A stretch of DNA of 64,000 nt, taken from NCBI GenBank assembly GCA_021292105.1, contig CM037870.1:65928515-65992514 (forward strand). Reading direction: 5' to 3'. The stretch is from Anadara kagoshimensis. Taxonomy: Eukaryota; Mollusca; Bivalvia; Arcoida; Arcidae. A program made the translations under genes and the position numbers. This document shows positions 3,401 to 63,646 of this stretch, in pieces. Within the stretch, counting starts at the first letter, position 1. Each line of letters begins with the position of its first letter. A model generated the notes under the pieces. It saw nothing but the letters and a program-made list of their open reading frames with translations, had not been told where the DNA came from and searched no databases.

Positions 3401-6400
3401 TAAAGTAAAAAAGTAAACCACTTTTTTGCATTTTCAAACTTTTAGAACATTTAACATTACTTCAATTTTTTAAACTTAACCCGACCTTTGTCTACCCTTA
3501 ATTGTACCTCATTGCAAACCTACGTAAATTATGAATTCTGCAATAATCAAACGAAAGATACCGCCATTTTGTCAAAATGTTTACCATTGTAAAACTTATT
3601 CAACATACGTTCTGGTGTTTTAAAGGAGTTGAAATGCATGGATTAGATCGAAATTAAGATTATTAGCAACGACGCAGCTCATGTAAGTAAATGATTATTT
3701 GATTTTTAACCGTGCCATTCAAATCTTTGAACTATTAGCATTTTTTCCTTTCTATGCAACATATTAAACAGACAAAAAATAACCATAATCAAAACCAAAC
3801 ATAACAATCGATGCAAAACTCATAAACACAAACATATTTATCCAGGTCCAAATCCCAATCTCAAACATAACAAATCCATGTCCAAATCCAAATCTTTAGC
3901 ACAAACATATCAATCCATGCAAAAATCACATACACGTACATGCCAATTTATTTCCAAATCCCAATCTCAAACATAAACATACCAATTCATGTCTAAATCA
4001 CAATCACAAAGCAAAGTAAAAAAAGTTGAAACCGACAAATTAACTTAAATAGGTGATTTTTGCACTAAAACAGTGAGACCGAGTGTTCCGGAGGGGTAAG
4101 CTCCTCTTATTTTGCTAGCTACACCCTCAACATACGTATTATACGCATTCAAACTTGAGAATGAAAAGTACATGTAACTATGGTAGTTAAAATAATACAA
4201 TGTATATATATTTATAACATGTATATATTATATATTCAATGTAACGAATGAGAAGAACTATCAATAATCGCATGTTATAATTATTTTCTTTTTCATCCAC
4301 AATTTAAAGGCTAGTAGATTCTATTGTTGTTTACTGCCATCAGGGCAAAATTTGTTTGACGCTAGACGAATTTATTCAACTGATTTTGTGTCTTGAAAAT
4401 ACAAAAGTTTACTAAACTTTCACCTATAGTTTGATCACTTTTTCAGTGAGGAAAAAACATGTTTTGAATAGGTGGTGTGATTCACACTTAGATATCTCAC
4501 TTGATATAAGTTCAATAGACTTAATTAATTTTAATTTAATGATTTAAAACTACAAAACTTCCAAGCTCATTTGAAAGAGCCAAGATTTTTTATCTCAAAA
4601 TATGAAGTTATTGGCGATAAGGCATTTAACTACGTGTACCTTTGTTGAATGATAAAGCTTTAACCATCTAGTGAGATGTTCCACATAGATTCCAGGTGTA
4701 AGACATTCATCTCGCAATTGTCTTAATTTAATTGGAGCAGAATCACCTGCTTTAATGATTTCCAAAAAACTATAAGTCATTGCCACTGGATCAGCATGTG
4801 CTCTTCTATGCTACAAAAAGTATTTGCAATAGACATGTATATATGTTTATTTATAGATAAGTAAGTTTTAACATTTGACAAATCGATCAATAATAATAAT
4901 ATTCAAACCGTTCCATCTCCTAAAAATTCTCACAAAGTAAAACTTTTAAAACATGCCAAATTAAGACAAGCACGTGAACTTCCACCAGCTAAGTATAACC
5001 CAGTGCTTCAGGTGGGCAAGCATCTTCTGTTTAGCTAGCTATACCCTCATTGAATATATTTTGATACAGGATCAGCATACGTAACAATATTGCGATGACG
5101 GCCATAAAACACAAAATGATAAAATTTGGACATTACATGTGCATCTCTCCAACCTGACGTCTCATTCACAATATAGAATAATATTGTATCCTTTTGCATG
5201 TAAAATCCTGATCATGTTATATCGTTAACTTTAAGGCACAATAACCACATTCTCATTTCACTTTTATATTCTGAATTTGATCTATAGATTAACAAGAAAA
5301 AAGGCAATTACTACTAAACCCGTTGCAACCCCGCAGTACTAGACCACCGTTTCGGAATATAAATTCTTCACAAGCAGTGTTCGGACTAAAATTGTTGAAT
5401 CCAAATATTTTTTAAGTTGTTGAAATGTTAAAAATAGAAGGACCTAATCTACTCATTGTTTTAAATACAGCGCATAGCTTATTTTTTGAGGAATGCTATC
5501 TCCGCTTTGATAATATAAATTATGGATAAACTATAGTGTATGTGGGCGTATTTGACTGGTAAAATTTCGTTAAACCAGAATCTCTTTCATAACTTGCTAT
5601 TTTTCATCTTTATTTTTGACAATTCAAATCGCAAGCAAACACTACAACCAGTGCCCATCAAAAAACAAAAATTTCACATCTTATTTTTGTACTGGCAAAG
5701 AGTGCTCAACTAGTCTGTCGTGTCGAGAACAACAGCTGTTTTAGGGATTGCAGTGTGTTTCTTTTTTACAAAGGCACATAGTATTCTGTGATATGAATGG
5801 TTATATATATGTATATATATATATGGGAGAATACTGATCAATAAACGACAATTTTTGTGTTTTGTCCAAATGGAAACTGTCAGTTGAAAATGACATACGC
5901 CTTGACAAAGAAAGTACTAGACCTGCCTTAAGATAACAAAAGTTGAGTGTTTTGATATACTTACCAAGAAACGATTTTTGAAAAAAATAAAACACGTAAC
6001 AATATATTATAGCATAAACAAATTTTTACGAATCATATAGCTGAGAGTCTACTGCTCTCAAATCTTAAAAACTCACCTGGTACCAGGAATATGCCCGATT
6101 TGCCGGATGAATTAAGATACACATAATCTTTGCTCTTGGAAGTAAAGCATGAGCTCTCCTAGGAACAAGCACATTATGAAAATACGTTGCACTCTTTTCG
6201 AATACAACATCAGACGTTGCATTAGGGAAGAAATCTAGATACCTATAGACAGGAACAAGAATAAAATATGATTGTTTGCGATAAAAATAACTATATAATA
6301 ATAATTTAAGCTTTAAATTATTTTGTTTTATCTTGATTGTGATTTGGACAGGGATTAGTATGTTTGGTTTGGATTAAGAACATATATTATATTGTTCTTG

Positions 6401-9400: not shown

Positions 9401-12400
9401 TCTGATGGTTAGAAATAGTGCGTTGTATTTTCAATGTATCGCTTGCACATATTTTTGCTTCAAATGTGCATTTTGAATGGTTTTCGGCAACAGTTTTAAA
9501 TCAATTCGTACATTGATGAAGTTTTCATAAATTATAATTTGCATTTTGACTGCATAAATCAGTTAAACAGTTAAAAACCTATTAAATTGACTATTTTCCC
9601 TAGAAAATAAATCAATATATTATACATGTACATGTAATGCTTTCATTTTTTATCTTGTAAATCTCCAAATAAAAATTAAGAGAGAGACTAAAATGAACAA
9701 TATAAGGATCTCAAGGAAAGTTCATAGACATTTGATCAAATCTTCTAATGGGATTTGAAATAAAATATAATGACACACAAAATATTTTACTTTACCAATT
9801 TGCCACATTTATAAGTACTCTAAGTTTGTTTAAGGTGGAAATATGTGTAACTTCTAGCATTTTTATGTGCATAAAACCAAATTAAACATTAAAAAAAATT
9901 CATGTAAATTTGTAGTTATTTTATTGATATAGCTTGTAAATCTGTAAAACAATTCAATTATTAAATCGTATTAAGGAATCATTTTATTCACATTTTGAAA
10001 TTATGTTATTGATTTTCTGAAACAGACTTTACTGTCACCTGTAATTAAGACCTTTGTCTTTGCTAATCCAACAACCAACACCAATTCCCACTTAGCCAAC
10101 ATTTAAAATCTTACCTATAAGTACAAAATTTCAGAATGTTGGCTAAGTGGGAATGAACCACAGGGACATCATACTAATCAACAATATCAATGAGGCCATA
10201 AAACTGTTTTAGGGGTTGATAAGCCTTGAAATGTCCATTAATAAATGAAGAAAGAATGGTTGAAAGTAAAAAAAAAAAATTGAAAAAGAAATTTATAAGC
10301 TTTACAATCAAACTAATGCATAAGTAAAAGGTTCTCAAATACATGCTGAAAACAAAATAGTAACAAATGTCATAAAATTGAGCTATCCGCATTAAACGCA
10401 GTGTCAGAACAATTTGTATTTTTCGTCTTGATTAATAAATACGGTATTAACGCATACCGGTACGTACTTGTAAAATGAACATTTTTGCCAATGCCAGGTC
10501 CCAATTCCGATTACTTCGAAGCTATTTTGACCTTTACGAACATATAAGGCACTTTTGATATCACCAACTCAAAGTCAAGCAAAGTTCCCATTCAAAAATA
10601 TCACATTTATCATGTTTTCGACACGATACTGAAATTAAATAAATTTAACACAATCTCTCTATTACAATTTAATTTAGCCACGTACGCAATTGAACAGAGG
10701 AAGCAAAATTCATGATATGTCCAATATACAACTGTATTCATATTGATGTATTGATATACTAGTAAACTAAACATAGTCTGAGTATTAGGGTTTTTTCCCT
10801 AATTACTTACCAATCCAACCCTTTGTAGTAGTTATCACCATTGAAGAATTGTACCTCTTCATATGTTACAGGACTTCTATGGCTACTAGTGATAGCTGGA
10901 TGGATACCAAGGAATGTATACAGAGCCATTGTACCTATAAATGAAACAAGCATATACAGGTCCACGATACAAAGGTTTTCTTATCATTACAGATGTTGAT
11001 GGGGAATCTATAAATGTTTTGATTAAAAGACAGCATACATAGTATAATCCAATAGGTTCAAAACCAGCTGTATCAATTAACAATTTTTAATTTTTAATTT
11101 CGAACAGCCAGGCACAATTTTAAAAAGTATCGCACCAACAAATCAAACATACTAATCCATGTCCGAATAGCAACCCAGAAGCAAATTAAAACACTTGAAA
11201 CTCACAAGTTAGGTAAACACGTAAACTTCCACCAGGGAAGTAAGGCCGGGTGCTCCAGAAGGTTAAGCATCGCCTGTTTAGCTAGCTACACCCGTCATGT
11301 GTGTAATCGAATTTGGTTTGAAGGAACACGGAAATATGGGGCGTCAAATATATCCTTGACTCAGAGATATCACACTTAACAACAATACTGTGATAATGGC
11401 CATACAATTTTTTAAAAAGCCTTGAAAAGCTTGGCTTGAAATATACCTGAATCAACAATTTATTTGCAAGCAGTCTGTTTCGTTGTACAAAGTTCCCATA
11501 GTGGGAACAAGCTCTACCATAGCGTATTACTTGGGAAACAAATACACCATAAGCAGGAGAAGCAGGTATATTGCTGCATAGAAAAGGAAAGTTAAAAATA
11601 GAAAAAATAAAGTCTTCACGTTTGTCATAAAGTTTAAAATGTAGCCTTTCGTGGGCGTCATATTTGAGGTATACGTCTAAATATGAAGCAGAACAACTCG
11701 AGGAATCATTCACAAACACCTTATTAATTATCCCTAATTAAATGGACATAGAGATAACATAATCGAAAACAAACATACCAATGCATGCCCAAGACACACA
11801 CTCAGAGCAAAGTAAAAACGCTGAAACTAAAACTAGTAAATCAAAAAGTTAAATATTTAGTTTTTTTCTTTCTTTGTAACAATTATCAAACTCACCTGTC
11901 TTTTGTGGACCAATCACCAAAAGATTTGGTAATTTTTTGCAATTTTTATTGGCTGACCACATTTTAAAGTGACGTTTGTTCAGACAGGGATTCTACAAAA
12001 ACAGATAATGATCTTTATGTTCTTCGAGAAAATGACATTAATAAAGTCTATAATTAAACATGATCAATTTGAACTAAGCAATCAGACAGGTCCATGTTTA
12101 AACCACACTCCCTAAAAAAGAAAACAATCTTTGATAACTGAGAGATAAAGTTAAACACGCAAGCTTTAATCAGACAATTGAGGTCGGTGACCCGGAAGTG
12201 TACATACACCTCTGTCTAGCTAGCTACACTTACCATGTGCGAAATCAAAACTGAGGGGAAAAAGGATTGTACGCGTCAAACAAATCCAGGATAATTATGA
12301 ATTCTTAGGCATCAAATGTATCAACAATATTGTGTTGATAATTCTTAGAGTCTTATAAATATGACTAAGCTTGGAATTACTAGTAGGATAAATGCCGTTA

Positions 12401-25700: not shown

Positions 25701-28700
25701 CCACATTTTACAAAACTTTGCAATTTATTCTTGTGGAATCATTTAATTTTGAAGTGACCTAATGTACATTGTCGGTCTCCATTAAATCTTATTTTAAAAA
25801 GTCTGCACACTCCGTAAAATTTTCAATTTCACTTCAAACTGACAAAATTTCTATGTCCAATAACTCCATCTTTGTATCTTTTAAAGGAATTATTAATAGC
25901 TATCACATCACAAATTGCCTGGCCATATTATAATGATAAAACAAAGTGGTATTGGACACCTTTCAACCTTAAGCCTGTTACCAGGTGCCCAGTGCCACGT
26001 TCTTTTAAGAATACAAGTTTTTGAGCAGAGACTGAAATTGTACATTAGGTCAATTCTTAATAAAATGATGGCACCAGAAAAAAGTTGCAAAGTTATGTAA
26101 AATGTGGCTGCAATCTTTGATAAACGGGGTTTTAGTAATAACAAATATGGTTTAGTAAACTTCTTTTGCCATATAATCACGAATAATAGGTAAACACTAC
26201 TACATAATATAGCCGAGGTCATAGAAAACCAGAAAAAAGGAGAATCACGGATATAAGAAATGCTTTCGGATTGAGAATATAAACCCCGTAGATACTTATG
26301 TTTTAGCTAAAATAAGTAGATATGGCCAGCAAAGGACGGATTGAAAAAGTGAATTACTAACATTACCGGAGTTGCAAAGATCGATGGAACAATTGGTATG
26401 ATGATATGAGTAAAGTGTTCAACTGACAAATAGAAAGAGATCAATGTTATAAAAAACATTTTTGAATTGAGGCAATAGAGAACTGATTAAATGCGCTGTG
26501 TAAATCAGTAGACATAAACACAAACATAATTATTATATCACAATAACAAAAACGAAGTTAAAAAACTGGCAAAGTTAAACACGTAAACATTGGCAGGGGA
26601 AAATCCGGGTGCTCGGGAAGGGTAACCGCCTCCTGTCACCACATGTGAAATCAAAATTGAGAGTGAAAGTAGTAACAAGAAAAGTCATTTCAATTCCGAC
26701 CGTTTGGAAGGAAATTGAACAAACAATTTATTGTTAGAGATTGGCAGAAACCAAAGAAGAGCTGATCATAGTAACCACGCTCTGCCATTCCATCAGGTAC
26801 TGTTCGACAAACAGACCTGTGTCACCTTAATGTGTCTTTAATCATTTTAGGAGGAAGGATGTAGATTTATATGCATGTTAAAGTAAATGGTTTGTGATTT
26901 TGAAAATGATTTTAAGGATTTGTCCAAAGACTGACTGACACTGCCTTCCAAATGACAAAGTGTTGATTATTTTAAATGTTTAGAGTGCGTGACACTTACA
27001 CAATTTTTTTGCGCATTGTCTTCTTTGCAAATATTTTGGATTTCTATCAGTTGACTTTTAGTCTTTTGCTAGAGGGTCCAGTCGTTGTTTTAATAGTTAC
27101 GATGTGTTTTACTCAAATGTGGTTCAACATAAAATTCAGTGACTTTCACCCTCAATTTCCATACTTGACCCTGTATTCTATATTCTAGTATGTTTCTTAA
27201 CTTAAATGCGGCATTCATACTGCAACTTTTCAAGTACAGTAATTTACCGATTTGCTAGTGTTCTTCTTGTCATTCTATGAATACAGAGTAGAATGAAAAC
27301 GCATGCATATGGTTCATCACATTGCTTTTTTACCAATCTGAAAACATATTCGTTCACTTACATTTGCACTATTATTTGCCTACATGCCTCAAATACTAGT
27401 ATACCCTTTTGTGAATTCATATGACAATTTTTTTCTAATGCAAAAAGGTAAGCTATGACTTCTTAGCCTGGAGAGGGTTTCTATGTTTTCATATTTTGGA
27501 GACGGGGAAATCAATTGATTCATGACAGCTACCAAAATTGACATTTCCGAAATATGTTCATGTTTTTAATGATTTTAGTGTAAGCGCATTGAATCAATAT
27601 CTGATATTTGAAGGTCAATGCCTATATAACAAAAATACAAACAGCGAAGATTCTTTTTTGCCATAGCACATTGAATTGAAAATGAAAGAAGTAGGCATTT
27701 TTCTATGAATAATTAGACCAATCTGCCATTGAAATGATGCATTTTGTAAATTATTTTGTATCCTTCAAGCATCTTTTCCATTCTTACATGCACATTTGCT
27801 TGAAACTTCCATTAGAAATACTAATTGTTACATATTGGCTAAAACAGGGTTTTCACATTTTTTGCAATTTTGGGGTAGGGGAAATAAATTTATTCGCCTC
27901 ATCTACAAGCTTTGCTACTTCCGACAGTTTTTGGTGTAATTAGACTGTTATATGTCAAGGAATTACGTCAATAGATAAAAGTCGAGATTCAATGCCTAAA
28001 TAACAAAAATACAAGGGGCAAAGCTCCTTTTTCTTATAGCATTTTACATATAAATGAATGAAATAAGCAATTTTATTATATTAGTTAGTCGTATCTGTCC
28101 TTAAGCTAAAGCATTTCACAAATATTTAAAATCCTCGAAGCTTGTTTTATCATTGTTGTGGGTACTTTTGCTCGAAATCTTCAATAGAAACACAAATCGG
28201 CATATATTGCATAAAAATGGATTTTCACATGTTTTTCAATTTTGGGGTAGGGGAAATAAATTTATCCGTTTCGTCTATAAACGTCGGTATTTCCGATAGG
28301 TTTTTATGTTGTCAGACTCAAATATACCATGGCAATACAGAAATATATAAATCTCGAGATTCAATGCCTATATAACAAAATTACAAGAAGTAGAGTACAA
28401 ATGATTTAATGAAAACTCATTTTTCAAACTACTGTTACATGAAAAGTGCAAATTTTCATATAAAATCACCAAGCACTCTACATATAATTGTTTTTTAAAT
28501 ATGTCGGGAACAGACGGGAGATGTAACAAACAATAATGATTTGTTTTAAACACTTATCGGCAAGCATGGGCCAAAATAATGAATTTTTGACATTTTCGTA
28601 TTTTTGGGGTAGGGGAAACAATAATTTGCTACGGTTTTAAGGTTCCATATTTCCGAAGTTTTGTAACATTTTTATCTAAAGCACTACCAAGGCTTTATAA

Positions 28701-31700
28701 AAATATATAGTTTGTCATATTTAGTGCATAAACAACAGATTTACAAGAATCGATAGACGGTAGATATGATAAAAACGCAGTTTACAGCATCGATTTTATC
28801 GCTTATTTTAAAATTTTGACACAAAATCGGAACACTGTCAGGATGTTTTGCATTTTAATCTATCATGTGTCCACAATGAAAGATAGAATGAACATTTTTG
28901 TGTTGTTTTTGCCACAAAATGCTTCAAAATCTGGAATTTTTATTTTTTACCAAAATTTAACATTTACAGAGGCTTTTCTTCAAAAACTGTTTCTGATTAA
29001 AAAATCGGATTTGACGCGTAAGAAATGAGTTTTCAGTAACTAGGGACATTTTCCTACAAGAAACATCCTTCAAACCTTTTGGCCTCGTTCACCCGGATTT
29101 TAGCCATGATCTCTTGGACTATAAAGTATTAACACTGATGCTAACACTACCAACGTAACCAAGAGCACGGCACAATACAAAATATTAAAATAACCTAAAC
29201 AAGAGGTAATTACCCTTCCGGAACACCTGACCTCAATGCCTAATAGAAATTTGGGTATTTAACTTAGATTGTCAGTTTCAAAGTGTTTGTTTTGCTTTCA
29301 GGTGGTTATTTGGACATGAATTTTTTTTTGTCCGAAACAGTAAGGGGATATCAATGATGACCCTATCGTCCGCAGTCAGTACAGATTAAAACAGAGGATT
29401 AAGATACAGCGAATGAAGTATATAACATATTTCAATGTCTTGTTTGCAGTACGGTTAATGTATAGCACGCCTTTGGTTGTAATGATTGGTTTCTTGAAAA
29501 TAAACTTCGACATATGCATTGGCAGTAAAAAGGGGAGCATATGTGTATAATACCTGTAAATAAAAAACATACTTACCATTCCATGTCCAAAGTTAGGAAA
29601 TGCTTAAGATTTGTGTATGATGAGAGGATTTTATTTTGTTTCATTGTTATGCTGTAGGTTCATGTTCTGGACGGATTATGGTAGAACAACCAGTCACATT
29701 GGGCGTGGATATATGGACGGATCAAACTGGTCCTTTATATATACACACACCACAAATCCCCATGGTTTGGCCATTGATTACAAAGGTATTTCATAATTGT
29801 ATAGACACCTTATTCTTGTAGCATAAAAATATTTACTTTGGCTTTAACATTCATTTCCAGATGAAAAATACAAACACATACCAGTTCATGTCGACATCAT
29901 AATGCCACAAACACATAATAGTTCATGTCGACATCATAATGCCACAAACACATACCCAGTCCATGTCGACATCATAATGCCACAAACACATACCAGTCCA
30001 TGTCGACATCATAATGCCACAAAAACATACCAGTCCATGTCGACATCATAATGCCACAAACACATACCAGTTCATGTCGACATCATAATGCCACAAACAC
30101 ATACCAGTCCATGTCGACATCATAATACCACAAACACATACCAGTTCATGTCGACATCATAATGCCACAAACACATACCAGTCCCTGTCGACATCATAAT
30201 GCCACAAACACATACCAGTTCATGTCGACATCATAATGCCACGAACACATGCCAGTCCATATGTCGACATCATAATGCCACAAACACATACCAGTCCATG
30301 TCGACATCATAATGCCACAAACACATACCAGTCCATGTCGACATCATAATGCCACGAATGCATGCCAGTCCATGTCGACATCATAATGCCACAAACACAT
30401 ACCAGTTCATGTCGACATCATAATGCCACGACCACATACCCGTCCATGCCGACATCATAATGCCACGAACACATGTCAGTCCATATGTCAACATCATAAT
30501 GCCACAAACACATACCAGTTCATGTCGACATCATAATGCCACGAAAACATACCAGTCCATGTCGACATCATAATGCCACGAATACATGTCAGTGTATATC
30601 GACATCATAATGCCACTAAAACATACCAGTCCATGTCGACATCATAATGTCACGAATACATGCCAGTCCATGTCGACATCATAATGTCACGAATACATGC
30701 CAGTCCATGTCGACATCATAATGCCACGAACGCATGCCAGTCCATGTCGACATCAAAATGTCACGAATACATGCCAGTCTATGTCGACATCATAATGCCA
30801 CGAAAACATACCAGTTCATGTCGACATCATAATGTCACGAATACATGTCAGTCTATGTCGACATCATAATGCCACGAACACATGCCAGTCCATGTCGACA
30901 TCATAATGCCACGTGTTCCATGACAACATCATAATGCCACAAAGTAAAATCTTTGATAAATGACCAAGAAAGGTGAAAACGTGAACATCCATTAGAAAAT
31001 TGAGGATGGGGGATTCGAACAGGCTTAGCATCTATGATTCCATAACCTAATGATTCATTATTCTGTTGTTTCAAGAATTTCGATTGGTTATATTTTTTCT
31101 AATAGGCGCTAAGTAATGTCATATTGTCTGGAACTACACAAAATTATGGATGCTTATACTATAGCGATGGCACTTAATTTTGATTTTTTTGTTTTAATTG
31201 TAAAAAATTGTAAATAATTGAATGTACTAAATTTAGTGATTAAAAATAATATAAATTGATCATGAAATATATAAAAAAAATAAAACGGAAATATGAAGGC
31301 AATTTGATCACGCATAATAATTCAGATTTTCAAATGTTCAAAGTGTCTATTTCTTTCCTCTTAGCCATAATAAATCGACAAATAAAATTCAGTTGTATAA
31401 CAATATCTTCATATAGCTAAAATCGGGGTTTTAAGGAAGATAAGACCCCATATTTCTTCTATAAAACAGCTCCGTTGTGCCAATACAGTCTACGGTCAAA
31501 ACATTTATCACATCGAAACAGTGCATGTTTACCGAATTTTAGCAAATATCAGTTATGGATTTTTTTCTTTTCTCGACTATACATGAACGAAAAAATTCAA
31601 GCTGTTTATTAGTAAGTAACAGCGAAAAACAAATTGCATATTTTTTGACAATTATTTTTAAAAGAGCAAACGAAAAACCAGGAATTCGGAAAAAAATTCT

Positions 31701-47578: not shown

Positions 47579-49520
47579 ACAAGAGGCCCAATAGGGCATG
47601 TGATGCTCAACTGGCAGGTAATTTACATTTTTGTTAAATAACATGCAAATCTTGTGAAATGGCATTCCCCCTCCTTTTTACAATTGAAACTGGAACCAAA
47701 GTGGTTGGAAAACAAATCTGCATCGGTCTTTCACGTTTTGCTATGTATACGAACAGAAGCCACCTTGGATTTTGGCTGATATGCCAGACATAACTTTTAA
47801 GGGACTTTTCATGCTGTATTGGGTTAGAACTGACCAATTCGAAGAAATTTTCAAATGATTTGGTTGAAACAAACATCTTATTTGTACACTGTCTAAAAAT
47901 TGGGTCAACAAATTTTTTTCAGGAAAAGTGAAACCTTCACCTTGACCTCATTTTGAAGGTAATTACAAGAATATTTCACAACTGAAACCCCCATGTCATT
48001 ATCTGATCAAATGGTGAAGATATAACAATTTCAGCAATGTTTTGCATCTGTGACCTTGACCTTTGAATCCATAATCTTTTTCTATACATCAAAATAGTAG
48101 TTGAATTAATATCTACAACATTCTAATATATATGCCTATAGAAAATGTTAATAGTTTTCAAGATAATTAATCATTTCAGTATTATTTCGTCTCTGTGACC
48201 TTGACCTTTGAACCCCTGAACTTAATCTATATATCACAATGATCATTACATCAATACCAACAATATTCTTATATACATGCCTGTACAAATACTTATAGTT
48301 TTCGTGTTAATTAATGTTTTTGATTTTGTTTTGCATCTGTGACCTTGACCTTTGAACCCATGACCATTTACTATATACCAAAATATCAAAGATATTCTAA
48401 TATACATGCCTAATCAAAAAGTTAATACTTTTCAAGATAATTAACCATTTAAGCATTGATGGATTATTTTGCTACCGTGATCTTGACCTTTGGACCCATG
48501 ACCTTTTTCTATACATCAAAATGATCGTTGTATTTATGCCTACAACATTCCAATATACATGCCTATACGAAAAGATTATAGTTTTCGAGATAATGAACCG
48601 TTTCAGTATTCTTTCGTGTCTGTGACCATGACCTTTGAACCCATGACCTTAACCTATACATCAAAATGATCGTTGCATCAATACCAACAATATTCCAATA
48701 TACATGCCTATACAAAAACGTATAGTTTTCGAGATAAAGAACCATTTCGGTATTGTTTTGCTTCTGTGCCCTTGATCTTTGGACCCATGACCTTGTTCTA
48801 TATATCAAAACAATCGTTGTATCAATACCTACAACATTCTCATATACATGCTTATACAAAAAGTTTAAAGTTATCAAGATAATTAACCATTTTGGTATTG
48901 TTTTGCTACTGTGACCTTAACCTTTGGACCCATGACCTAAAACTATACATCAAAATGATCGTTACATGCCTATACAAAAAGTTTATAGTTTTCGAGATAA
49001 TAAATAAAATCAGAAAGGTAAAAAATTAGGTCATGACCTTCACAATTGACCTTGATCCCATTTAAAGGTAATTACAAGAATATGTCAAAACTGAAAACCT
49101 CATGTCCTTATCTGATCTAATAGTCCAGTTATAACAATTTAAAACAAGTTAAAGCCATTTTATGATTTTTTCCAAAATTAAAAGCAAAAACGCGTTACCT
49201 ATTTTTTGTCAGAATTCCACGAAATGTACAAACTTAGAGGTTGAGACCATCTAGAAGCCAAATATCAAATCAGATTTTAGCTCCAATGACTGGTTCTGGA
49301 GAAGAAGATTTTTTAGGTTTTTTCTATTTTTAGTAATGGCAGCCATTTCGGATATCTAATCGCCATGATTTGTACAATCTACAGTCAGTCTCTAGCAAGG
49401 ACCTTGCACAGCAAATTAGGTTTCAAAAGGCCTGGTAGTTTCAGAGTTTTTGCTGTTAACGGACGCACGCACGCATGCATGCATCATGCCAATAGCTCAT
49501 CTGTCTAGACAGATGAGCTA
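47579..49520. mobile_element. ~1.94-kb non-autonomous element with central ~160-bp tandem repeats and terminal palindrome
   Basis: Starts near AACAAGAGGCCCAATAGGGC. The core holds about eight diverged repeats containing GTGACCTTGACCTTTGAACC and ATACATGCCTATACAAAAA. The distal end has a CGCACGCACGCATGCATGC microsatellite and the perfect palindrome from TAGCTCATCTGTCT to AGACAGATGAGCTA. The layout (core repeats, microsatellite, hairpin near the end) resembles bivalve pearl-like or Helitron-derived elements. No protein-coding frame. Confidence 0.8.
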
Positions 49521-51015: not shown

Positions 51016-51644
51016 TTATTTTTTTCCCTCTTCTTTCTCTCTCTTTTTTGGATGTAATTAGGTAACCGTTCTCATCAATGTTCACATTTTTTGTTATTTT
51101 ATACCGGCTTTTCTACTGCATATAACCGTTTATGCCATCATAGTCTGTAGACCCATAGTATCAGTGCACGGTGTCTAGTCAACTTGGTCCAGTTCCGACT
51201 TTTGCAACTCGTTTTATATTTCATGCCAACTTGTTCAATTTTTATGCAATTGTATAATTTCTCAAAATTAAGTATGTATTAACTTGTTCCAACTAAAATA
51301 CCAACTTGTATTGATCAACTTATTTAAAGTTTGTCAGTATTAAATTGTTCAATGTTTTAGTCACGCGGCTGGTAAATTAGATAAAATGTACTTAATATAT
51401 AATACAACATTTCCTAAGAGCTAAAATTTATTACCATGAAAACATATATATTTCGTGGTTCTAAGATTAAATCAACTTTGCTTAGGATAGCAAATTTGTG
51501 TAAGGTAGGTTTTAAATATATACTATTTTGTATTCCTTGGGTATACACAGAAATTTGGAGACAAACGAAAACTTCAATTATTTCACAGTATTTGATTACA
51601 AAGAAACAAATCGCAAACAAATATGCTTTATTATTTCTTGGTTG

Positions 51645-53755
51645 ATAGCTAAACAGCAGGAGCTTACCATTCCGGAGCACCCGACCTTACTTAAAAATGA
51701 AAGTTAAAGTGTTTAACGTAATTCGTCAGTTTCAAAGTTTTTACTTTGGTTTGGGATTGTGATTTGAACATGGATCGGTATGTTTGTTTTTACTTTGGTT
51801 TGGGGTTGTGATTTGAACATGGATCGGTATGTTTGTTTTTACTTTGGTTTGGGATTGTGATTTGAACATGGATTGGTATGTTTGTTTTTATTTTGGTTTG
51901 GGATTGTGATTTGAACATGGATCGGTATGTTTGTTTTTACTTTGGTTTGGGATTGTGATTTGGACATGGATTGGTATGTTTGTTTTTACTTTGGTTTGGG
52001 GTTGTGATTTGAACATGGATCGGTATGTTTGTTTTTACTTTGGTTTGGGATTGTGATTTGAACATGGATTGGTATGTTTGTTTTTATTTTGGTTTGGGAT
52101 TGTGATTTGAACATGGATCGGTATGTTTGTTTTTACTTTGGTTTGGGATTGTGATTTGAACATGGATCGGTATGTTTGTTTTTACTTTGGTTTGGGGTTG
52201 TGATTTGGACATGGGTTGGTATGTTTGTTTTTACTTTGGTTTGGGGTTGTGATTTGGACATGGGTTGGTATGTTTGTTTTTACTTTGGTTTGGGGTTGTG
52301 ATTTGGACATGGATTGGTATGTTTGTTTTTACTTTGGTTTGGGATTGTGATTTGAACATGGATCGGTATGTTTGTTTTTACTTTGGTTTGGGATTGTGAT
52401 TTGAACATGGATCGGTATGTTTGTTTTTACTTTGGTTTGGGATTGTGATTTGAACATGGATCGGTATGTTTGATTTTACTTTGGTTTGGGATTGTGATTT
52501 GAACATGGATCGGTATGTTTGTTTTTACTTTGGTTTGGGATTGTGATTTGACATGGATCGGTATGTTTGTTTTTACTTTGGTTTGGGATTGTGATTTGAA
52601 CATGGATCGGTATGTTTGTTTTTACTTTGGTTTGGGATTGTGATTTGAACATGGATCGGTATGTTTGTTTTTACTTTGGTTTGGGATTGTGATTTGAACA
52701 TGGATCGGTATGTTTGTTTTTACTTTGGTTTGGGGTTGTGATTTGGACATGGGTTGGTATGTTTGTTTTTACTTTGGTTTGGGGTTGTGATTTGGACATG
52801 GATTGGTATGTTTGTTTTTACTTTGGTTTGGGATTGTGATTTGAACATGGATCGGTATGTTTGTTTTTACTTTGGTTTGGGATTGTGATTTGAACATGGA
52901 TCGGTATGTTTGTTTTTACTTTGGTTTGGGATTGTGATTTGAACATGGATCGGTATGTTTGATTTTACTTTGGTTTGGGATTGTGATTTGAACATGGATC
53001 GGTATGTTTGTTTTTACTTTGGTTTGGGATTGTGATTTGGACATGGATCGGTATGTTTGTTTTTACTTTGGTTTGGGATTGTGATTTGAACATGGATCGG
53101 TATGTTTGTTTTTACTTTGGTTTGGGATTGTGATTTGAACATGGATCGGTATGTTTGTTTTTACTTTGGTTTGGGATTGTGATTTGAACATGGATCGGTA
53201 TGTTTGTTTTTACTTTGGTTTGGGATTGTGATTTGAACATGGATCGGTATGTTTGTTTTTACTTTGGTTTGGGATTGTGATTTGAACATGGATCGGTATG
53301 TTTGATTTTACTTTGGTTTGGGATTGTGATTTGAACATGGATCGGTATGTTTGTTTTTACTTTGGTTTGGGATTGTGATTTGGACATGGATCGGTATGTT
53401 TGATTTTACTTTGGTTTGGGATTGTGATTTGAACATGGATCGGTATGTTTGTTTTTACTTTGGTTTGGGGTTGTGATTTGAACATGGATCGGTATGTTTG
53501 ATTTTACTTTGGTTTGGGATTGTGATTTGAACATGGATCGGTATGTTTGTTTTTACTTTGGTTTGGGATTGTGATTTGAACATGGATCGGTATGTTTGTT
53601 TTTACTTTGGTTTGGGATTGTGATTTGGACATAGATTGGTATGTTTGTTTTTACTTTGGTTTGGGATTGTGATTTGGACATAGATTGGTATGTTTGTTTT
53701 TACTTTGGTTTGGGATCGGATTTGGACATAGATTGGTATGGTTGTTTTATTCTAA
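51645..53755 (-). repeat. 49-bp tandem array, about 41 copies, attached to a minus family A copy
   Basis: The body fragment at 51660-51740 (TTACCATTCCGGAGCACCC, ACTTTCATTTTT-type spacer, CGTCAGTTTCAAAG) leads directly into repeats of TTTTTACTTTGGTTTGGGAT plus TGTGATTTGAACATGGATCG plus GTATGTTTG. The unit is the reverse complement of the family's first 49 bp. Variants (GGGGTTG with GGACATGGGTTGG; TTTGATTTTAC) recur in the same order near 52190 and 52730, indicating a higher-order repeat. Regular period but no unique spacers. Confidence 0.96.
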
Positions 53756-55606: not shown

Positions 55607-56772
55607 TCAATTTTGTTTTTTCACATACCGACCCATAAAAAGAATAGTTCCACTTTGTTTTTCTGTAATCAAAAATATAAATGGATGGTTTGCATTAAAT
55701 TCTAGAGGGGGTTGCATTGATCCTCCAAAAACCCCAATAATAGTAACAGCTGCAGCTTCTGTCCGCTCCTCATCAACACTCACAAACGCTTTATGTATTA
55801 CTTTATCGACTTTTAAACCGGACGGATTTACGAACATATTGCTGAAGTCTGCTAATCCAGAAAACAAGTCGGTTATCCCAAATTGCTTTAAAGAATTTTT
55901 TAAGTTTTCAAAACTAGATCTCATTTCAAATTTAGGAATGGATATGTTCGTTTCTTGTTCTCGTAAGCTTGATGAAATAGTTGCCAGGGCGTCAGCAGTT
56001 AATTTGGTCTCTAAATCTGCCACACCATCTATTTTGTTAGGCAAAATGATCAGCATATTAAAGTCACCTCCTCTGTACGGCAACTCCAGAACTTTGCAAT
56101 TATATTCTGTATTTACTCCCGAGCGAAATTTTTTCGTTTTCATATTCATCATTTCTACTTTTTCGCTTTCGGCTGAAGAGATAAAGAAATCGCGAATCTT
56201 CGTATTAGTTCTGTTAAATTCCATATCCCAACTGCCTTTGAAGTAAATTGCATTGACAAGAAACATAATGGAATCTCTAGTTAGACTGCCTTTCGGTAAG
56301 ATGTCTTTTATCAAGTTATTGGTTTTATTACTAGCCCACTCATTTATGTATAGTCTTGATGCTTCCGGTTGACCTAAAAAGTCCAATGGTTCTACCTCAG
56401 TTCCGTAATAGCGTTTAGCGTCCATCATGTATTGTTGCTTTAACGCAAATTCTAGCTTTGGAAATAGTCGATTTGCAATAGCTACAATGATAACATCATT
56501 AGTCAAAGCTTTATTTAGATACTCCTGTAATTGTTTATATTCTTGATGGACGTTTCTTCTTACTCCGTTCAAGTGTAACGCGGACATGATTTGACTTTCT
56601 GTGTTTCCACCTGTTCCTAACATTGTCAACATCAAAGCCGCCATTACACTAAATGCTGACATGAACTTCTTTCCGCTTTCATCTCCGTCCGGTTTTGAAA
56701 TCTTAAATAATGAAACAGAGAATTCAGTGATTGAACCGTTTAATGCATCAAGTTTTGGTGCTGGTGTTGTTT
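55607..56772 (-). CDS. Minus serpin exon 3: whole serpin domain
   Basis: Acceptor TTTTGCAG sits immediately before AAACAACACC; the methionine a few codons upstream (MFYF) lies in the intron. The frame is uninterrupted to TGA at 55607. All serpin landmarks are present. Confidence 0.95.
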
Positions 56773-58404
56773 CTGCAAAATAAAACAAAATGATAGGTAA
56801 AAAGAAAAATAATTTGTAAATTTCTTAAGAATGAAATCATTCATAACGAAGATAGATAATTCACGTTTTAATACAGAGAAACAGTATCTGTAATGAATTT
56901 TGCTGTTGATTATTATTAATTTTGTTATTTGCTACCGGCGTCTTTCGTGTGCAGCTCCAATAGACTAAAATGTTTCACTATGAATGCAACTGATGAGGGG
57001 ATCAGTAACCAATTTGATGATTGATAAACCGTTGTTTTTCTGTTCTACGACATTAATTGCATTTTGTAGTCAGTATTACGGTTAGAAATGTTCGACAAAA
57101 TTTAAATAACTTGCTATTGTACTAAGGCGAGAAATTAAAATGACACTTATATTAAGGTTTAAATATAAATACTTTTCTTGTTACTTTCAATTACACTGAA
57201 ATCCTATAATCCTTCGGTTCCTGAGAAAATAGCCAAAAAATTATAGGAAACAAAAATGACCCAAATCAAATTTTGACATCACCTCAGAGGCGTTATAGAA
57301 ATTTCTAATTGTAACATCAATTCTAAAATTATATTAAGTTAATCGAACATCAAAACATAAAACAATGTAACTAAAGAGGCATGTACTTGGCAACTACCGA
57401 TGTAAACAAAACACGGGGTATAATGATAAAAGCAGACAGACAAGTGAAGATTAAAAGGAAAAAAAATGCGGATGATGATTATATACATTTCTAGTATATA
57501 TGCGACAATGTCCAGAGATGTAATTATTCTGCATTATTTTTTTCTGCCGGGCTTATTTAAAACTTTTATATATCAGTTTTATAACATTATATCCAACCAT
57601 TTCTCTTATTTTCAAACAAGTAGGCAATACATATGCCCCATTTAAGAATTTATAAAAGCCTTATCGTACAACAGATCCAAAAATCCATGTACATATATAC
57701 TATTCGATAAATTCAGAAAACATATTTTTTTAATTAATTATCTTGATTTTAATAAACAAATCTAAATTTAAAATATATGTTTAAAAAGAGAACTGTGTAT
57801 TGCGGATAGTTTTTTATCAATAATACTCATACATAATCCTAAAAAAAATAATTTTAATTGTTGACGAGAACACATCGATGTCAATAAACCATTAAATTGC
57901 ATTCGACGGAGATCAGAATTTGCATTTTTAAATTATAATTTATTTACCTTTTACCCTTCCGATCCCTTTTAGATAGCCAAATGCATTGCCTCTTTGCCAC
58001 CAGGAGTGTAAATGTCTCCCAAAATATCTGCTATATATTGGTGTCGATGACAATATACCTACAATATAAAAATATATTTTTATGTCCTAAAAAGCCAAGA
58101 TTTTCATTTAACATGGTATATGTTATCAGATTGTGATATCGACATTACGACAACTATTATTAGAGGAGGTGAAGCAACGTGTATCTATTCTAAGGTTTAA
58201 ACGGAATAAATCAGTGAATTACTTGTTAAACTATATTTCATAAACCCATACCTCTGAAAAATCTTAGTATTTGATAAAGTTTTATATTCATTTTTTTTAA
58301 TTTTAACTCTGCATTCAATTTAGAGAAAAATCTGATTTGATTAACATGTAACTATACAACATACCAAAAACGCAAATGAACCCCAAACATAATGATAAAT
58401 CAAT
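55607..58404 (-). CDS. Secreted serpin (three exons), start codon apparently lost
   Basis: Exons 58365-58404, 57948-58058 and 55607-56772, all GT/AG with phase 1 joins. Exon 3 encodes a full serpin core of about 390 residues: LVNAIYFKGSW, CKVLELPYRGGDFNMLIILP, hinge DEERTEAAAVT and signature FNANHPFIFLI ending FMGRYVKKQN. Exon 1 encodes DLSLCLGFICVF, a signal-peptide core, but its first codon is ATT where the paired gene has ATG. There is no in-frame ATG between it and an upstream TAA. Serpins inhibit serine or cysteine proteases. In the reactive loop, counting from the hinge puts P1-P1' at about Gly-Ser, and P15 is Arg instead of Gly, so inhibitory capacity is uncertain. Divergent partner of the plus-strand serpin. 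Confidence 0.88.
57948..58058 (-). CDS. Minus serpin exon 2: linker
   Basis: Acceptor TGTAG and donor GTAAAT, 111 bp, phase 1-1. Encodes ILSSTPIYSRYFGRHLHSWW and QRGNAFGYLKGIGRVK. Unlike the plus gene's glycine-tyrosine-rich linker in sequence, but occupying the same exon slot. Confidence 0.7.
58365..58404 (-). CDS. Minus serpin exon 1: signal peptide without ATG
   Basis: 40 bp ending at donor GTATGT, the same length, phase and donor as the plus gene's exon 1. Encodes (I)DLSLCLGFICVF versus MDLKLRIAFLCIC. The initiator position reads ATT. Confidence 0.65.
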
Positions 58405-60056
58405 AATCAGCACCGGTGTATTAACTTCAGCAAATTAGACTATAGTCCTATAAAGGTACTGGACTGATATTTATCTCTTGGCAGTTTTTTTTTTTTTGTG
58501 TCCTTGCGTTCAAAAACGCACGTAGCATTTCCTAAATCTGTTGTACGTGAAACGTGACAAGTTATTTTAATTTGATTGGCTAATTTTAATATGGTCGCTT
58601 ATTGCTCTAAGCATGTCCGGCAATTCGGATTAATAATAATATTTATGAACAGGATCTAACACGTTTCATTTTAAATTTTATGTGACATTCAGGTATAGGC
58701 AAAAATACAAGAAACTGAAGGCGACATTTGACATTGCGTATTCATTTCACATTTTCAACAATGCCATGTAGATCGCAGTTGTTTTCATTGTAGGGTAAAC
58801 CGTGATTATAAAAGCAAAATTTCACCTAAAGCTAATATTGTGTTCAGTACCTTTTTTCGCCTATTTAAATCTTGATTTTACATATATATACAACTATACT
58901 AAATTGCAAATTATAATATAGCAACACCTTTTAACCGGAAGGTTAGTTTGGACATTTGTCAATAGGGCTTCAAGTTTATCACGCCACTAAATATATATAT
59001 AATAAATTAGGATCAATAAGCTGCCTTCTGAATTTTAAAACAAAGTCATCAACTTAAGATAACGATTCAAGTCATCATCTTGGCGGACTCATACACCGCA
59101 AAATGATATTTTGTATTTACTTCTAACTCCATTAAGTAGCGGTGATATTATAAAGATGATCTCAATACTAAATATACATGATTAATAGCTACAAAGTATT
59201 ATGGCCGTCATCACAGTATTGTTGATAAGTTTGATGCCTCTGGCATCAGGATTGCCCTTAATATATTTGACGTCTCATAGTTCCATGTTCTTCTCACACA
59301 ATTTTGAATACACACGTGACTGGTGTAGCTAGCTAAACAGGAGGTGATTACCCTTACGGAACACCCGGCTCACTTCCCTGGTGGAAGTTCACGTGTCTAA
59401 CCTAACTTGTCAGTTCCAACGTTTTTACTTTGCTTCTGGATTGTGATTCGGACATGGATTAGTATGTTTGTTTTTGATACATATTTTATGTTTCGTTCAA
59501 AGTTTTTTAACTTTTATAATTATTTATAACTCCATACTTCCGTAACATAAAATAGCGAATCAATTAGAACGAAATGATGGGTAATATATAAAGAATTACA
59601 ACCGATTTAAACAAAAGTTTAATGTTCCAAGAATATGACGCAATACAATTTTATAACAATATATTAAGAGAGTTACATAGCTGCATACACTGGTATTATC
59701 ATGTTATAATATTTGACAAAGAAATGTATCTTTCAATTTTTAACATGTTATTTCCTACGTAATATAACACTAATCGAACGAAATTTAAAAACATCATATA
59801 TGAGTCATCAACTTCTGGGTTTTTTTTCATTACGCCACATGTGCACATAAAAATATAAAAATATATAAACCAATCATCTTAAACTAATAACTCATGTTGG
59901 ATATGTAACGTAATAAACATAAACCGGATTATGTGCATTTACGTGAGTATTTAAACGAATTAAGACTCATAAAACAAGGATGACATTCCCGGCTCTTAAA
60001 AACGTGCGTATGATATTGTTTAAAGTGACTGAAATAGTTGTAAGACAAGATTGGCC
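58405..60056. promoter_or_regulatory. Shared interval between divergent serpins
   Basis: 1.65 kb between the two first exons. Contains the full-length family A copy at 59201-59478 and otherwise AT-rich DNA without coding frames. Both promoters are expected here by position; no specific element was recognised. Confidence 0.45.
59201..59478 (-). mobile_element. Family A full-length copy between the serpin genes
   Basis: Reads from ATGGCCGTCATCACAGTATT through ATTTGACGTCTCATAGTTCC, GTGTAGCTAGCTAAACAGGA, GGAACACCCGGCTCACTTCC to GGATTAGTATGTTTGTTTTT. It occupies much of the 1.65-kb interval shared by the divergent serpins. Confidence 0.85.
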
Positions 60057-60096
60057 ATGGATTTGAAACTTCGCATAGCTTTTCTTTGTATCTGTG
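60057..60096 (+). CDS. Plus serpin exon 1: signal peptide
   Basis: 40 bp, MDLKLRIAFLCIC plus one base, donor GTATGT. Identified by exact phase fit to exon 2 and by homology to the minus gene's first exon. Confidence 0.82.
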
Positions 60097-60646
60097 GTAT
60101 GTAATTTTATGATAAAACATTAATTGAAGCATATCGTTCTGGAATTTTCAACACACAATCTTGCTCTTATTTATTTTGGGTTGTTTGTCAGGTTATATAC
60201 GATCATATTAATCTTCATTTAGTTTACATTTGTCCCATTTAGATTGTTTTGTAATATTATTTTTGCTGAATTGCTGAAAATGAGTAAAATAGGTAATCGT
60301 GTAGTTTTTTCTAAGTTGTTTTTGTTTTAATGACGCTCGGTTGGTTGGTCTAAAACTAACTCATACGGTGTTCAATATTCTGGTTTACTTTTCCGTAATG
60401 TAGTAGATTAAAGTAAAATCTAATTATGACATATACGCGCTTATAAGCAAAGACCTTCCACAATAAATAAGATTCTTACTTGAACTTGATTTAGGTCGGA
60501 CCAGCAGCGGTGCAACGCCGTGGGATTGAAGCCTTACCTACTATAAAATATATACCCCTCTATAACAAACAATTTTTATATTGACAATGTGTAATTTTAT
60601 TTTGTAAAGATCGTCTACAGTATTGTTTAATTGCTAATTATTGTCA

Positions 60647-60702
<56 letters not shown>

Positions 60703-63646
60703 TCTTTAAAATTTAGAAGGAAATAAAAAAACCGTAACAGGACATTTAATTCATTTTAATTTTCGGTAAATAAACCAGTTATAATATCTGATGTTTTTTT
60801 GTTTTTTTAAATGAAAATGATTCTCAATTATTCAATTAATGATTGAATTCACTTTAATCTAGTGATTAGCATAGATAAGCTATGTAACTTGTCTGTTGCT
60901 ATGACAAAAACCCAGCAAAAGACTACAATAAGCTCTGATTAATTATTAATTAGATTCGTTTTCTTGTAGTCGGTTGCCTTTGTGGCTATTGAACAGAAAA
61001 CTGTATTTTGTAAATTTCCTGATTCTATATTCAAAAACATTTACAACAGTCCTTTAGGTATGATATATATTGAGTTTATAACCTTGAGATAAGTGTAATG
61101 AAATATATTCTTTCATTAAGCCATTTAGGATTTGGTAAATTTTTAATAAATGTACTTATGTGAACTTGGTTGTGATTAGTTAGTAATAACGATTAAAAAA
61201 AGGACATCTCATTGCCAAATCATGTAAACATTGGCGATAACAAAACAGGATGAATATGATGTTGTTCATCTCCAGGTTGTTGGTAAACGAGTACCATATA
61301 TAAACCCTGGCACTACACACATCAATAAGCACACATCACAACATCAACATCCACTCCAGGTTTCAATGAATCGAAGCTGGTATTTTTATAACCATCGCGC
61401 ATTGGATTGTTTCGTCACATTAAGAAATAAGATTCTGAAAAGTTCTTTATGTTCTAGAATCACAGTTACATTCATTTGTTCGGCAAATGCGATTTGTAAT
61501 AGCAAACATTATTAATTGTATTACATAATTATGTTAATAGAAGAAATCTTAGTCTCGTTGTCTGACCAGTATCAACTTGTTTTCCCCGCTGCATACAAGC
61601 ATATACAGAATTATAAGGCACTATTTAAATGATGTGTTGTAACAATATACGTTTTGACAAATCGATGGTAACGTGTTTTATCTGACATCAAAATGCAATG
61701 CACAGTTTATAAAATGAATGATTTGGGATCAAACAAAAACAAACATAATGATATGTATGTATATCCATATCATAATTCAAAATCAAAGTAAAAACTTTGA
61801 AACTGTAATATTATGTGAAACATATGTTTAACGTTAAATTCCACCAAGAAAATGAGACCGGGTGCTTTTCGAACCTAATGAAAATTGTTTATGGTTTATA
61901 TTTAAGTATTATGCCTGACATTAGTCAAGGGAGGAAAATTTGGAAGACTCGAAGACATCTTGTGGGCAGGCGGTAATGGCTACGGATATGGGTATGGCAA
62001 CCCAACAAACACAGGTAATGTTTAGACTTTAATGGGTAAATTTAATAAATAGCTATAACACAATAACAAAATACATATTTGGATAATGTTATCAAACTCT
62101 TATCAATTTTATATTTCTGCATCAAGAAACATATTTTTTTAGCATTGATTTTACTAGCTACCTTCTTAAAAAAAACGCATAGAAATTAGTACATTTCAAA
62201 TACACAGGTGTCAGGTGTCTTTATGTTTAAAAAAGTAATTCGTTCCAACTATTTGAACAATAAATATTATAACGGTCACCGAATTTCTAAACATTCGAGA
62301 TGATTTATCAAACTATGACCATATTATCTTGTGTCTCATCTTACCTAAAAGCACGATGTTTAACAATAAGCAAAAACAAACATACTAATCCATGTCCAAA
62401 TCTAAATCAGCATAATCAGCTAGTTTTTACTTCGGCAAGGTTTGCAAACACGAATTCTAAATGCATAACATTTACTTTCGCAGAAACTACCACTTCAACA
62501 CCAGCAGCTACACTTGATGCATTAAAAGATCCAATCACCAAATTTTCAGTTTCGTTATTTAAGATTGCAAAACCGGACGGAGATTCAAACGGCAATAAGT
62601 TTATGTCACCATTTAGTGTAATGACGGCTTTGATGTTGACAATGTTAGGAACCAGTGGGAACACAGAAAGTCAAATCATGTCCGCGTTACAGTTGAATGG
62701 GGTCAGTGGAAACGTCAATCAAAAATATAGACAGCTACAGGATTACCTGAATATGGCTTTAACTAATGACGACATTATTGTAGCAATTGCTAATAGACTT
62801 TTCCCGAAGCTTGGATTTGCATTGCTACAACAATACATCATCGACGCTGCACGTTACTACGAAACTGGAGTAGCACCACTTGACTTTGATGGTCAACCGG
62901 AAATCTCCAGGCAATACATTAATGAATGGGCAAGTAATCAAACCAATAACATCATTAAAGATATCTTACCCTTTGGTAGCATAACCGGGAATACCATTAT
63001 GATTCTGGTCAATGCAATTTATTTTAAAGGTAGTTGGCAAATCGAATTTAACAAAACCAATACAATAGTCAGTACTTTCCATGTCTCTTCTACAATTACG
63101 GAAAAGGTTAAAATGATGAAGATGAGAACGGCGAAATTGAGATCGGGTTTAAATACAGATTTTGATTGTAAAGTACTGGAGTTGCCGTATAAAGGAGGAA
63201 ACTTTAACATGGTGATCATCTTGCCCAATTCTATCGATGGTATAGCAGGTTTGGAGAATGCGTTAACTGCAGAGGCATTTGCATCTATATTTGCTAGTTT
63301 ACAGGAACAAAGAACTGATATATCTATTCCTAAATTTGAAATGCTCTCCAGTTTCGAAAATTTAAACGACTCTCTTCAGCAACTTGGAATAACGGACTTG
63401 TTTACTGGATTGGCTGACTTCAGTAATATGTTTGTAAATCCGTCTGGTTCGGCTGTTGATAAAGTAATACATAAAGCGTTTGTAAGTGTTGACGAGGAGG
63501 GAACAGAGGCAGCAGCTTCAACAGCTGTGGTAATCACAAAGTCATTATTTGTGTTCAATGCAAACCACCCGTTCTTGTTTTTGATAAAAGAAAAACAGAC
63601 TGGGGCTATTCTTTTCATGGGTCGGTATGCGAGAAAACAAAATTGA
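60057..63646 (+). CDS. Secreted serpin (three exons)
   Basis: Exons 60057-60096, 61925-62014 and 62484-63646, all GT/AG with phase 1 joins. ATG at 60057 has a favourable context (GCCATGG) and starts MDLKLRIAFLCIC, a signal peptide. Exon 2 adds a short Gly/Tyr-rich linker. Exon 3 holds the serpin domain: LVNAIYFKGSW, CKVLELPYKGGNFNMVIILP, hinge DEEGTEAAASTA, signature FNANHPFLFLI and FMGRYARKQN. The canonical hinge suggests an inhibitory serpin. The loop after the hinge (VVITKSLFV) is about three residues shorter than in alpha-1-antitrypsin or the paired gene, placing P1 near Lys or Ser. The long open frame starting at 62300 is not the gene start, because it runs through intron and a repeat fragment. 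Confidence 0.92.
60652..60700. repeat. (AT)n microsatellite in serpin intron 1
   Basis: About 48 bp of TA dinucleotides. Confidence 0.95.
61725..61870 (+). mobile_element. Family A 5' fragment in serpin intron 1
   Basis: CAAACAAAAACAAACATAAT, AATCAAAGTAAAAACTTTGA and GAGACCGGGTGCTTTTCG. Ends about 55 bp before serpin exon 2. A shorter fragment lies at 62370-62425 in intron 2. Confidence 0.75.
61925..62014 (+). CDS. Plus serpin exon 2: Gly/Tyr-rich linker
   Basis: Acceptor CATTAG, donor GTAATG, 90 bp, phase 1-1. Encodes KGGKFGRLEDILWAGGNGYG and YGYGNPTNT. Low-complexity tail between signal peptide and serpin core. Confidence 0.78.
62484..63646 (+). CDS. Plus serpin exon 3: whole serpin domain
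   Basis: Acceptor TTTCGCAG before AAACTACCACTTC; stop TGA at 63644-63646. The domain is continuous with no frameshift and is highly similar to the minus-strand exon 3. Confidence 0.96.

Follow-up and report, generated by a model that had tools for sequence, protein, structure and literature searches.

Tandem repeats in the 3' untranslated region of Ogre LTR retrotransposons turn into satellites in Lathyrus sativus, as described by Vondrak et al. (PMC7004042); Ogre elements are LTR elements, and there the repeats lie inside the element. Helentrons of the Cg_HINE and Pearl type in oysters likewise carry short arrays that are dispersed through the genome and vary in copy number, and they are DNA elements with defined ends in which the array forms a structural module at the centre (PMC7492417, PMC8268682). 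Models for the origin of satellites from transposons, as set out in a review (PMC12628747; see also PMC9659126), begin with an initial duplication that is followed by expansion, and invoke microhomology end joining. The start of a tandem array from single-copy DNA is usually inferred after the fact.

Here we describe a 49-bp array in the bivalve Anadara kagoshimensis. The window, by which we mean the whole stretch of 64,000 nucleotides that was analysed (C14:65928515-65992514), has a G+C content of ~33%; genome-wide searches covered the 1.115-Gb assembly of 36 contigs. In contrast to Ogre, the unit here is the 3'-terminal segment of the element, and in young copies a hexamer repeat already stands on both sides of it; in contrast to Cg_HINE and Pearl, the carrier is a reverse transcriptase (RT) element, most of whose observed copies are single-unit.

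Structure of the 49-bp array

Tandem Repeats Finder placed a tandem array at 51737-53748 (period 49, 41.1 copies, 97% matches), and splitting this stretch unit by unit yielded 41 units of 12 sequence types; 39 of them measure 49 bp and the other 2 measure 48 bp. At its low end (51737) the array is continuous with the body of a dispersed family, positions 4-149 of the nhmmer profile matching 51641-51785 (E 8.5e-38). The initial annotation had reported a ~41-copy array joined without a break to such a body and had named Tandem Repeats Finder as a check; both array and junction are borne out. At ≤3 mismatches the window contains 60 occurrences of the end motif, against 0.02 expected from shuffles. 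The locus is made up of the following parts.

51641..51736, + strand: 5'-truncated retroelement body (3' untranslated part) carrying the 49-bp array (nhmmer)
51737..53748, + strand: tandem array, 41 units of 49 bp (Tandem Repeats Finder and unit-by-unit split)
53744..53755, + strand: outer (3') element terminus, degraded relative to the consensus GTTTTTGAT (opposite strand: ATCAAAAAC) (by-eye comparison)

The element sense at 51641..51736 is the + strand. Body and flank are also found in the paralogs L064 and L065, and the outer terminus in L063 and L065. The unit had been equated with the first 49 bp of the element, to be checked by aligning it to the terminal segment. The unit does lie in that segment, at bases 9-57 from the element end (TCAAAAAC / 49 bp / TTTG...); it is not the outermost 49 bp, since it starts 8 bp inside the terminus, and the RT frame described below makes this end the 3' end, so that 'first' does not apply.

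Because the unit is homologous to part of a dispersed element, keeps its register and is attached to the element body, the locus qualifies as a transposon-derived minisatellite or satellite seed. Classical satellite DNA is heterochromatic and extends over tens of kb or more; the window array measures 2.0 kb and, by its length, belongs with the many short arrays dispersed in this genome and not with classical satellites.

Read from the outer end inward, the unit types are ABBCDEDFDCCCCCFDCCCGHCCCIDCCCGHHCJKELJKEC. The block DCCCGH repeats at a distance of 10 units, a score reached by 5 of 5000 shuffles, and if unit I is taken as an F that lacks one base, the repeated block grows to 10 units, CCCFDCCCGH (0/5000 shuffles). 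Under that reading of one unit, the blocks are units 12-21 and 22-31 from the outer end:

52227..53205, no strand assigned: higher-order repeat, CCCFDCCCGH twice in succession, ~490 bp each (unit types, shuffles)

The longest strict repeat by count of non-C units, JKE, was reached in 282 of 20000 shuffles; a blunter lag statistic, the maximum match number over lags 1-20, was not significant (802/5000 shuffles). Variant units therefore do recur in order, and the higher-order amplification proposed from them is present as a block repeat. The pattern fits a single block duplication of ~490 bp.

The carrier is a 5'-truncated retroelement

In agreement with the initial annotation, no repeat found in the window is commoner than the family that carries the array. 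With both arrays masked it gave 28 profile matches, some of which are pieces of one copy, and in a masked self-comparison of the window the highest depth, 15, was reached by family copies. The longest copy retains part of a coding frame:

11134..11745, - strand: longest window family copy, with RT frame at 11285-11737 (-) (reading frame, comparison with L027)

This frame is a 151-aa C-terminal part of an RT frame, and L027 (loci are numbered with an L) matches it with 75.6% identity over residues 13-131. Stop-to-stop RT frames of 555 aa and 723 aa are present in L031 and L032, respectively; they end ~200 bp before the end of the sequence that these loci share and read towards it. The RT frame of related copies accordingly runs on the strand that reads towards the array. 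RVT_1 was matched with E 1.8e-5 by 509 aa of L027 and with E 4.9e-5 by L032, scores (25 and 23.6 bits) that lie under the Pfam curated cut-off of 29.6. The frame contains YIDD, which we take to be the RT motif.

Copies were aligned to the L032 stretch; the loci had been picked by similarity to a 221-bp query, two self rows were omitted, and L027 and L031 are one place. The 3' ends of 27 of the 30 rows coincide within 10 bp, and the 5' ends of the same rows spread over positions 928 to 2563 of the reference (~1.6 kb). An RT frame reading towards the array, a common 3' end and scattered 5' ends together mark the carrier as a 5'-truncated retroelement with the array at its 3' end.

A non-LTR retrotransposon or a Penelope-like element would show such an RT frame, present here with RVT_1 scores below the curated cut-off, and such a common 3' end with variable 5' truncation. 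The frame may resemble Penelope-like RTs, and the element is only tentatively Penelope-like. The GIY-YIG domain had no match within the 723-aa frame of L032, which may not span the whole element, and no LTR was seen on the window-family retroelement, whose copies are 5'-truncated. Searches with the 151-aa RT tail gave no noteworthy match in Pfam or PDB, and neither viral_contigs nor genome_contigs yielded a relative that could be confirmed; the 509-aa frame of L027 was without a PDB match at E ≤ 1. The end motif had no exact match in viral_contigs, and Rfam gave 0 window matches at gathering scores. Target-site duplications gave no signal in 20 window copies (mean score 7.0 versus 6.6 in mispaired controls, largest control 7.7), and the high score of the copy at 29566 came only from the overlap of its two search stretches.

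Several other features of the window were recorded. A separate tandem array (65 bp x 12, 96% matches, no other window copy) lies at 15557-16341, and a diverged one (145 bp x 6.6) that contains TGACCTTGACCTTTGAACC at 48023-48963. At 24451-24607, within 24401-24650, there is a perfect 78-bp direct duplication; the surroundings at 24401-24650 recur inverted at 28388-28559 with 96-98% identity, and the two lie in longer repetitive stretches, 23831-25176 and 27493-29122. A heparan sulfate N-deacetylase exon is found at 18232-18735 on the - strand (PF25119, E 1.9e-36).

Single-unit copies and the AAAAAC repeat

Two more arrays in the window belong to the family of the 49-bp array, and the copy used as query has a single unit:

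29870..30912, - strand: second family array, 37-bp unit x 28 (Tandem Repeats Finder)
30913..31033, - strand: retroelement body joined to the 37-bp array (profile search)
3785..4194, - strand: third family copy, several degenerate terminal units (~33-40 bp, by eye) and body (profile search)
59190..59480, + strand: single-unit family copy used as query (profile search)

Beside the 37-bp array, 30916-31033 matches family profile positions 14-132 (E 4.2e-16), and the array breakpoint differs from that of the 49-bp unit. Multi-unit copies make up 3 of 23 in the window and single-unit copies 20 of 23, after 25 clusters had been reduced to 23 copies because three were pieces of one 37-bp array. Among bystander clusters in L001-L030, 27 of 29 are single-unit (the 2 multi-unit clusters are both in L024), as are all 30 loci nearest the copy at 59250-59470, L001 being that copy itself.

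The single-unit end consists, in order, of TCAAAAAC, 49 bp with final AAAGTAAAAAC, and TTTG, so that AAAAAC flanks exactly 49 bp on both sides. An AAAAAC pair 49 bp apart was found in 33 of the 37 matches to the single-unit end in L002-L032; these matches are close relatives from one subfamily and hence not independent, and two places are counted twice among them (L025/L032 and L027/L031 overlap). Elsewhere in the same loci a six-base match at 49-bp distance occurs at a rate of 0.001. Of 11 older window copies, only 3 show AAAAC on either side of the unit at a spacing of exactly 49 bp. The 49-bp unit is the segment that slippage between two AAAAAC hexamers would duplicate.

Arrays across the genome

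The initial annotation regarded the locus as a snapshot of a satellite being born and proposed a genome search for other expanded ends. That search found the tandem junction pattern (≤1 mismatch) 11,659 times genome-wide (6019 + 5640) and 0 times in a reversed control. Together with the two further family arrays in the window and the at least two units that very probably predate the duplication of the locus (see below), this speaks against a single event. Among the matches listed, exact junctions mark at least 19 sites within the initial 32.1 Mb of C1, and the longest cluster, judged by positions only, spans ~8 kb with gaps (C1:16.122-16.131 Mb).

Thirteen array loci were inspected among L033-L062 (30 loci, many overlapping). 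The family body is clear at the array edge in five of them (L033, L039, L051, L053 and L061) and not clearly shown in six; L045 and L048, which are duplicates of each other, have only about the first 9 bases of the body at the edge. The latter two are alike in the flank stretches compared, and their motif spans are 570 and 430 bp. In L034, L036 and L038 (C1:2.77 and 3.47 Mb) the 49-bp arrays are edged by GACCTTCATGAAGGTCATCG sequence and not by retroelement body; in each of L034 and L036 a distance of 1,210 bp separates array parts, which may mark a larger composite repeat that acquired the unit.

Unit identity was compared in 11 sources (9 of the 13 inspected loci, L063 and the window array), of which the 10 with at least 4 units were kept. 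Mean identity was 0.911 within loci (10 arrays) versus 0.839 between them (45 pairs, one of which is the paralog pair). The gap shows plainly where arrays are more homogenised and vanishes in the oldest ones: L033 units are 0.848 identical within the locus versus 0.852 with L051, and the values of 0.871 and 0.860 within L036 and L038, respectively, compare with 0.877 between the two. Several arrays have private signatures in the variable part of the unit (CCAGAAGC, CCTAAAGC and CCTGAATC), and the L039 array has a private 55-bp unit. Two long arrays on C11, 55 kb apart and chosen by their similarity to the window array, have ~45 (L066) and ~63 (L067) units (37 and 62 motif starts). Their body truncation points differ, and L066 retains the terminus ATCAAAAAC outside the array. 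The unit variant CCCAAACC is common to the large arrays at the independent sites L066, L067 and the window.

Three copies of one insertion

The window region is segmentally duplicated on C14; for instance, L002 corresponds to window 57752-60969, inverted, with 99.5% identity. The block contains two serpin-like frames that have no introns, one at 55607-56824 (-; Serpin PF00079, E 2.1e-106) and one at 62291-63646 (+), the second resembling the first by eye and by a DNA self-match, and parts of the block around them are duplicated on the same chromosome.

The insertion with its array was found three times, body and body-side flank being common to all. The outer flank is shared with the window over >2 kb in one duplicate and over ~50 bp in the other. 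The window array has 41 units, the inverted duplicate (L063/L064) 53 and the third copy (L065, at C14:66.095 Mb) 5. In L063/L064 the array consists of 10 whole units, one split unit and a further 42, and is interrupted by a 13,778-bp insertion (C14:65274150-65287927) with a 3-bp duplication, ATG. This insertion, known from ~3 kb of one end and 0.2 kb of the other, has terminal inverted repeats starting CACTGGGCGAAATA / CACTGGGCG in which 24 of the first 25 bases are alike, and is presumably CACTA/EnSpm-like.

Substitutions in the body-side flank number 4/378 between the window and L063/L064, and 11/313 and 12/311 between L065 and these two, gap columns being omitted (8, 73 and 69, partly from unequal lengths). 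Only unit types C, E, F and K are common to the window and the first duplicate, and L065 shares none. The copies are thus unlike in array length and in unit content, with only 1-4% divergence in their flanks. The outermost units of all three copies start with AACC and the inner units with AAAC, from which we infer that the window array very probably had at least two units before the locus was duplicated. The three array copies may be an assembly artefact instead of real duplicates.

Discussion

We propose, and consider likely, that this is a family of elements with a built-in seed repeat, whose arrays start by slippage and are then enlarged and homogenised in place. Copies of an RT-encoding retroelement family, fixed at the 3' end and truncated to varying extents at the 5' end, are scattered through the genome, and the young single-unit ones have AAAAAC twice, exactly 49 bp apart, in the 3'-terminal 57 bp. 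Strand slippage or unequal exchange between the hexamers may then have duplicated the 49 bp between them as the first step. From two units on, unequal exchange and slippage would lengthen, shorten and homogenise the array where it stands, and the window array would be one such locus, in a segmentally duplicated serpin-gene region. That arrays grow in place, and are not transposed ready-made, we infer from the paralogs, the block repeat and the locus-private units of the younger arrays.

The signatures private to several arrays in the C1 sample, which was taken in order of position, the other periods of the family (37 bp and 55 bp) and the single unit in every one of the 30 loci closest to the 59250-59470 copy also bear on a different history, in which the source element already had a tandem 3' tail that was spread by retrotransposition, copy number varying because reverse transcription could start in any unit. 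These data argue against such a history, and we regard it as unlikely, although it would account for one 49-bp phase at 11,659 junctions, for the terminus left intact outside the L066 array and for the overlap of within- and between-locus identities in the oldest arrays. The CCCAAACC unit that L066, L067 and the window have in common speaks for it too, and may mean either unit exchange or transposition.

Our first hypothesis was a Helitron of the Pearl or HINE kind, considered because of an A|TC end and the bivalve literature; it was rejected on the RT frames that read towards the array. On this account, the element would be a bivalve-type Helitron or Helentron (Pearl, Cg_HINE) copied by rolling-circle replication, with the array as a fixed structural part. 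Arrays on such elements are common in oysters (PMC7492417, PMC8268682), A|TC stands at the end of 9 of 21 copies as counted by eye, and the 20 window copies show no target-site duplication signal. A Helitron, however, is marked by Rep/helicase, 5'-TC and 3'-CTRR with a hairpin, and here we find an RT frame, a ragged other end and no common second end. The body joined to the array comes from the 3' part of an element that bears an RT frame, and copies of this element are common at one end and raggedly truncated at the other. Moreover, the single unit of 20/23 window copies and 27/29 bystander clusters implies that the array is not a fixed part of the element, which leaves a Helitron origin very improbable. 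A pre-existing satellite in or beside which the element inserted by chance, a view that could draw on the arrays with no clear element body (L034, L036, L038 and L044), is less probable still, because the unit shares homology with the terminal segment of the element itself and is joined in register to the body at the window locus and its two paralogs, a register also found at L033, L039, L051, L053, L061, L066 and L067.

The seed-and-growth process proposed here falls within the general models (PMC12628747), and adds to them a seed repeat in unexpanded young copies and array states that can be compared in paralogs of one insertion. Searches of open-licence papers brought up none that deals with this element or describes a fixed seed hexamer, and we claim no priority. 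In our assessment the process is of a known kind, a transposon-derived minisatellite, and the natural experiment is unusually clean.

If every young insertion brings two AAAAAC hexamers 49 bp apart, each copy would be an independent founder able to start an array by slippage. Array birth might then be recurrent and predictable, having occurred hundreds of times in this one genome, and a 2-kb array might be rewritten within ~1% flank divergence; we offer this wider reading only tentatively. A lone array joined to its element may look like a one-off birth and yet have very many counterparts, which calls for caution. One genome here holds unexpanded elements with the seed repeat, many expanded loci and one insertion in three array lengths, and rates of expansion, contraction and homogenisation would be measurable against flank divergence.
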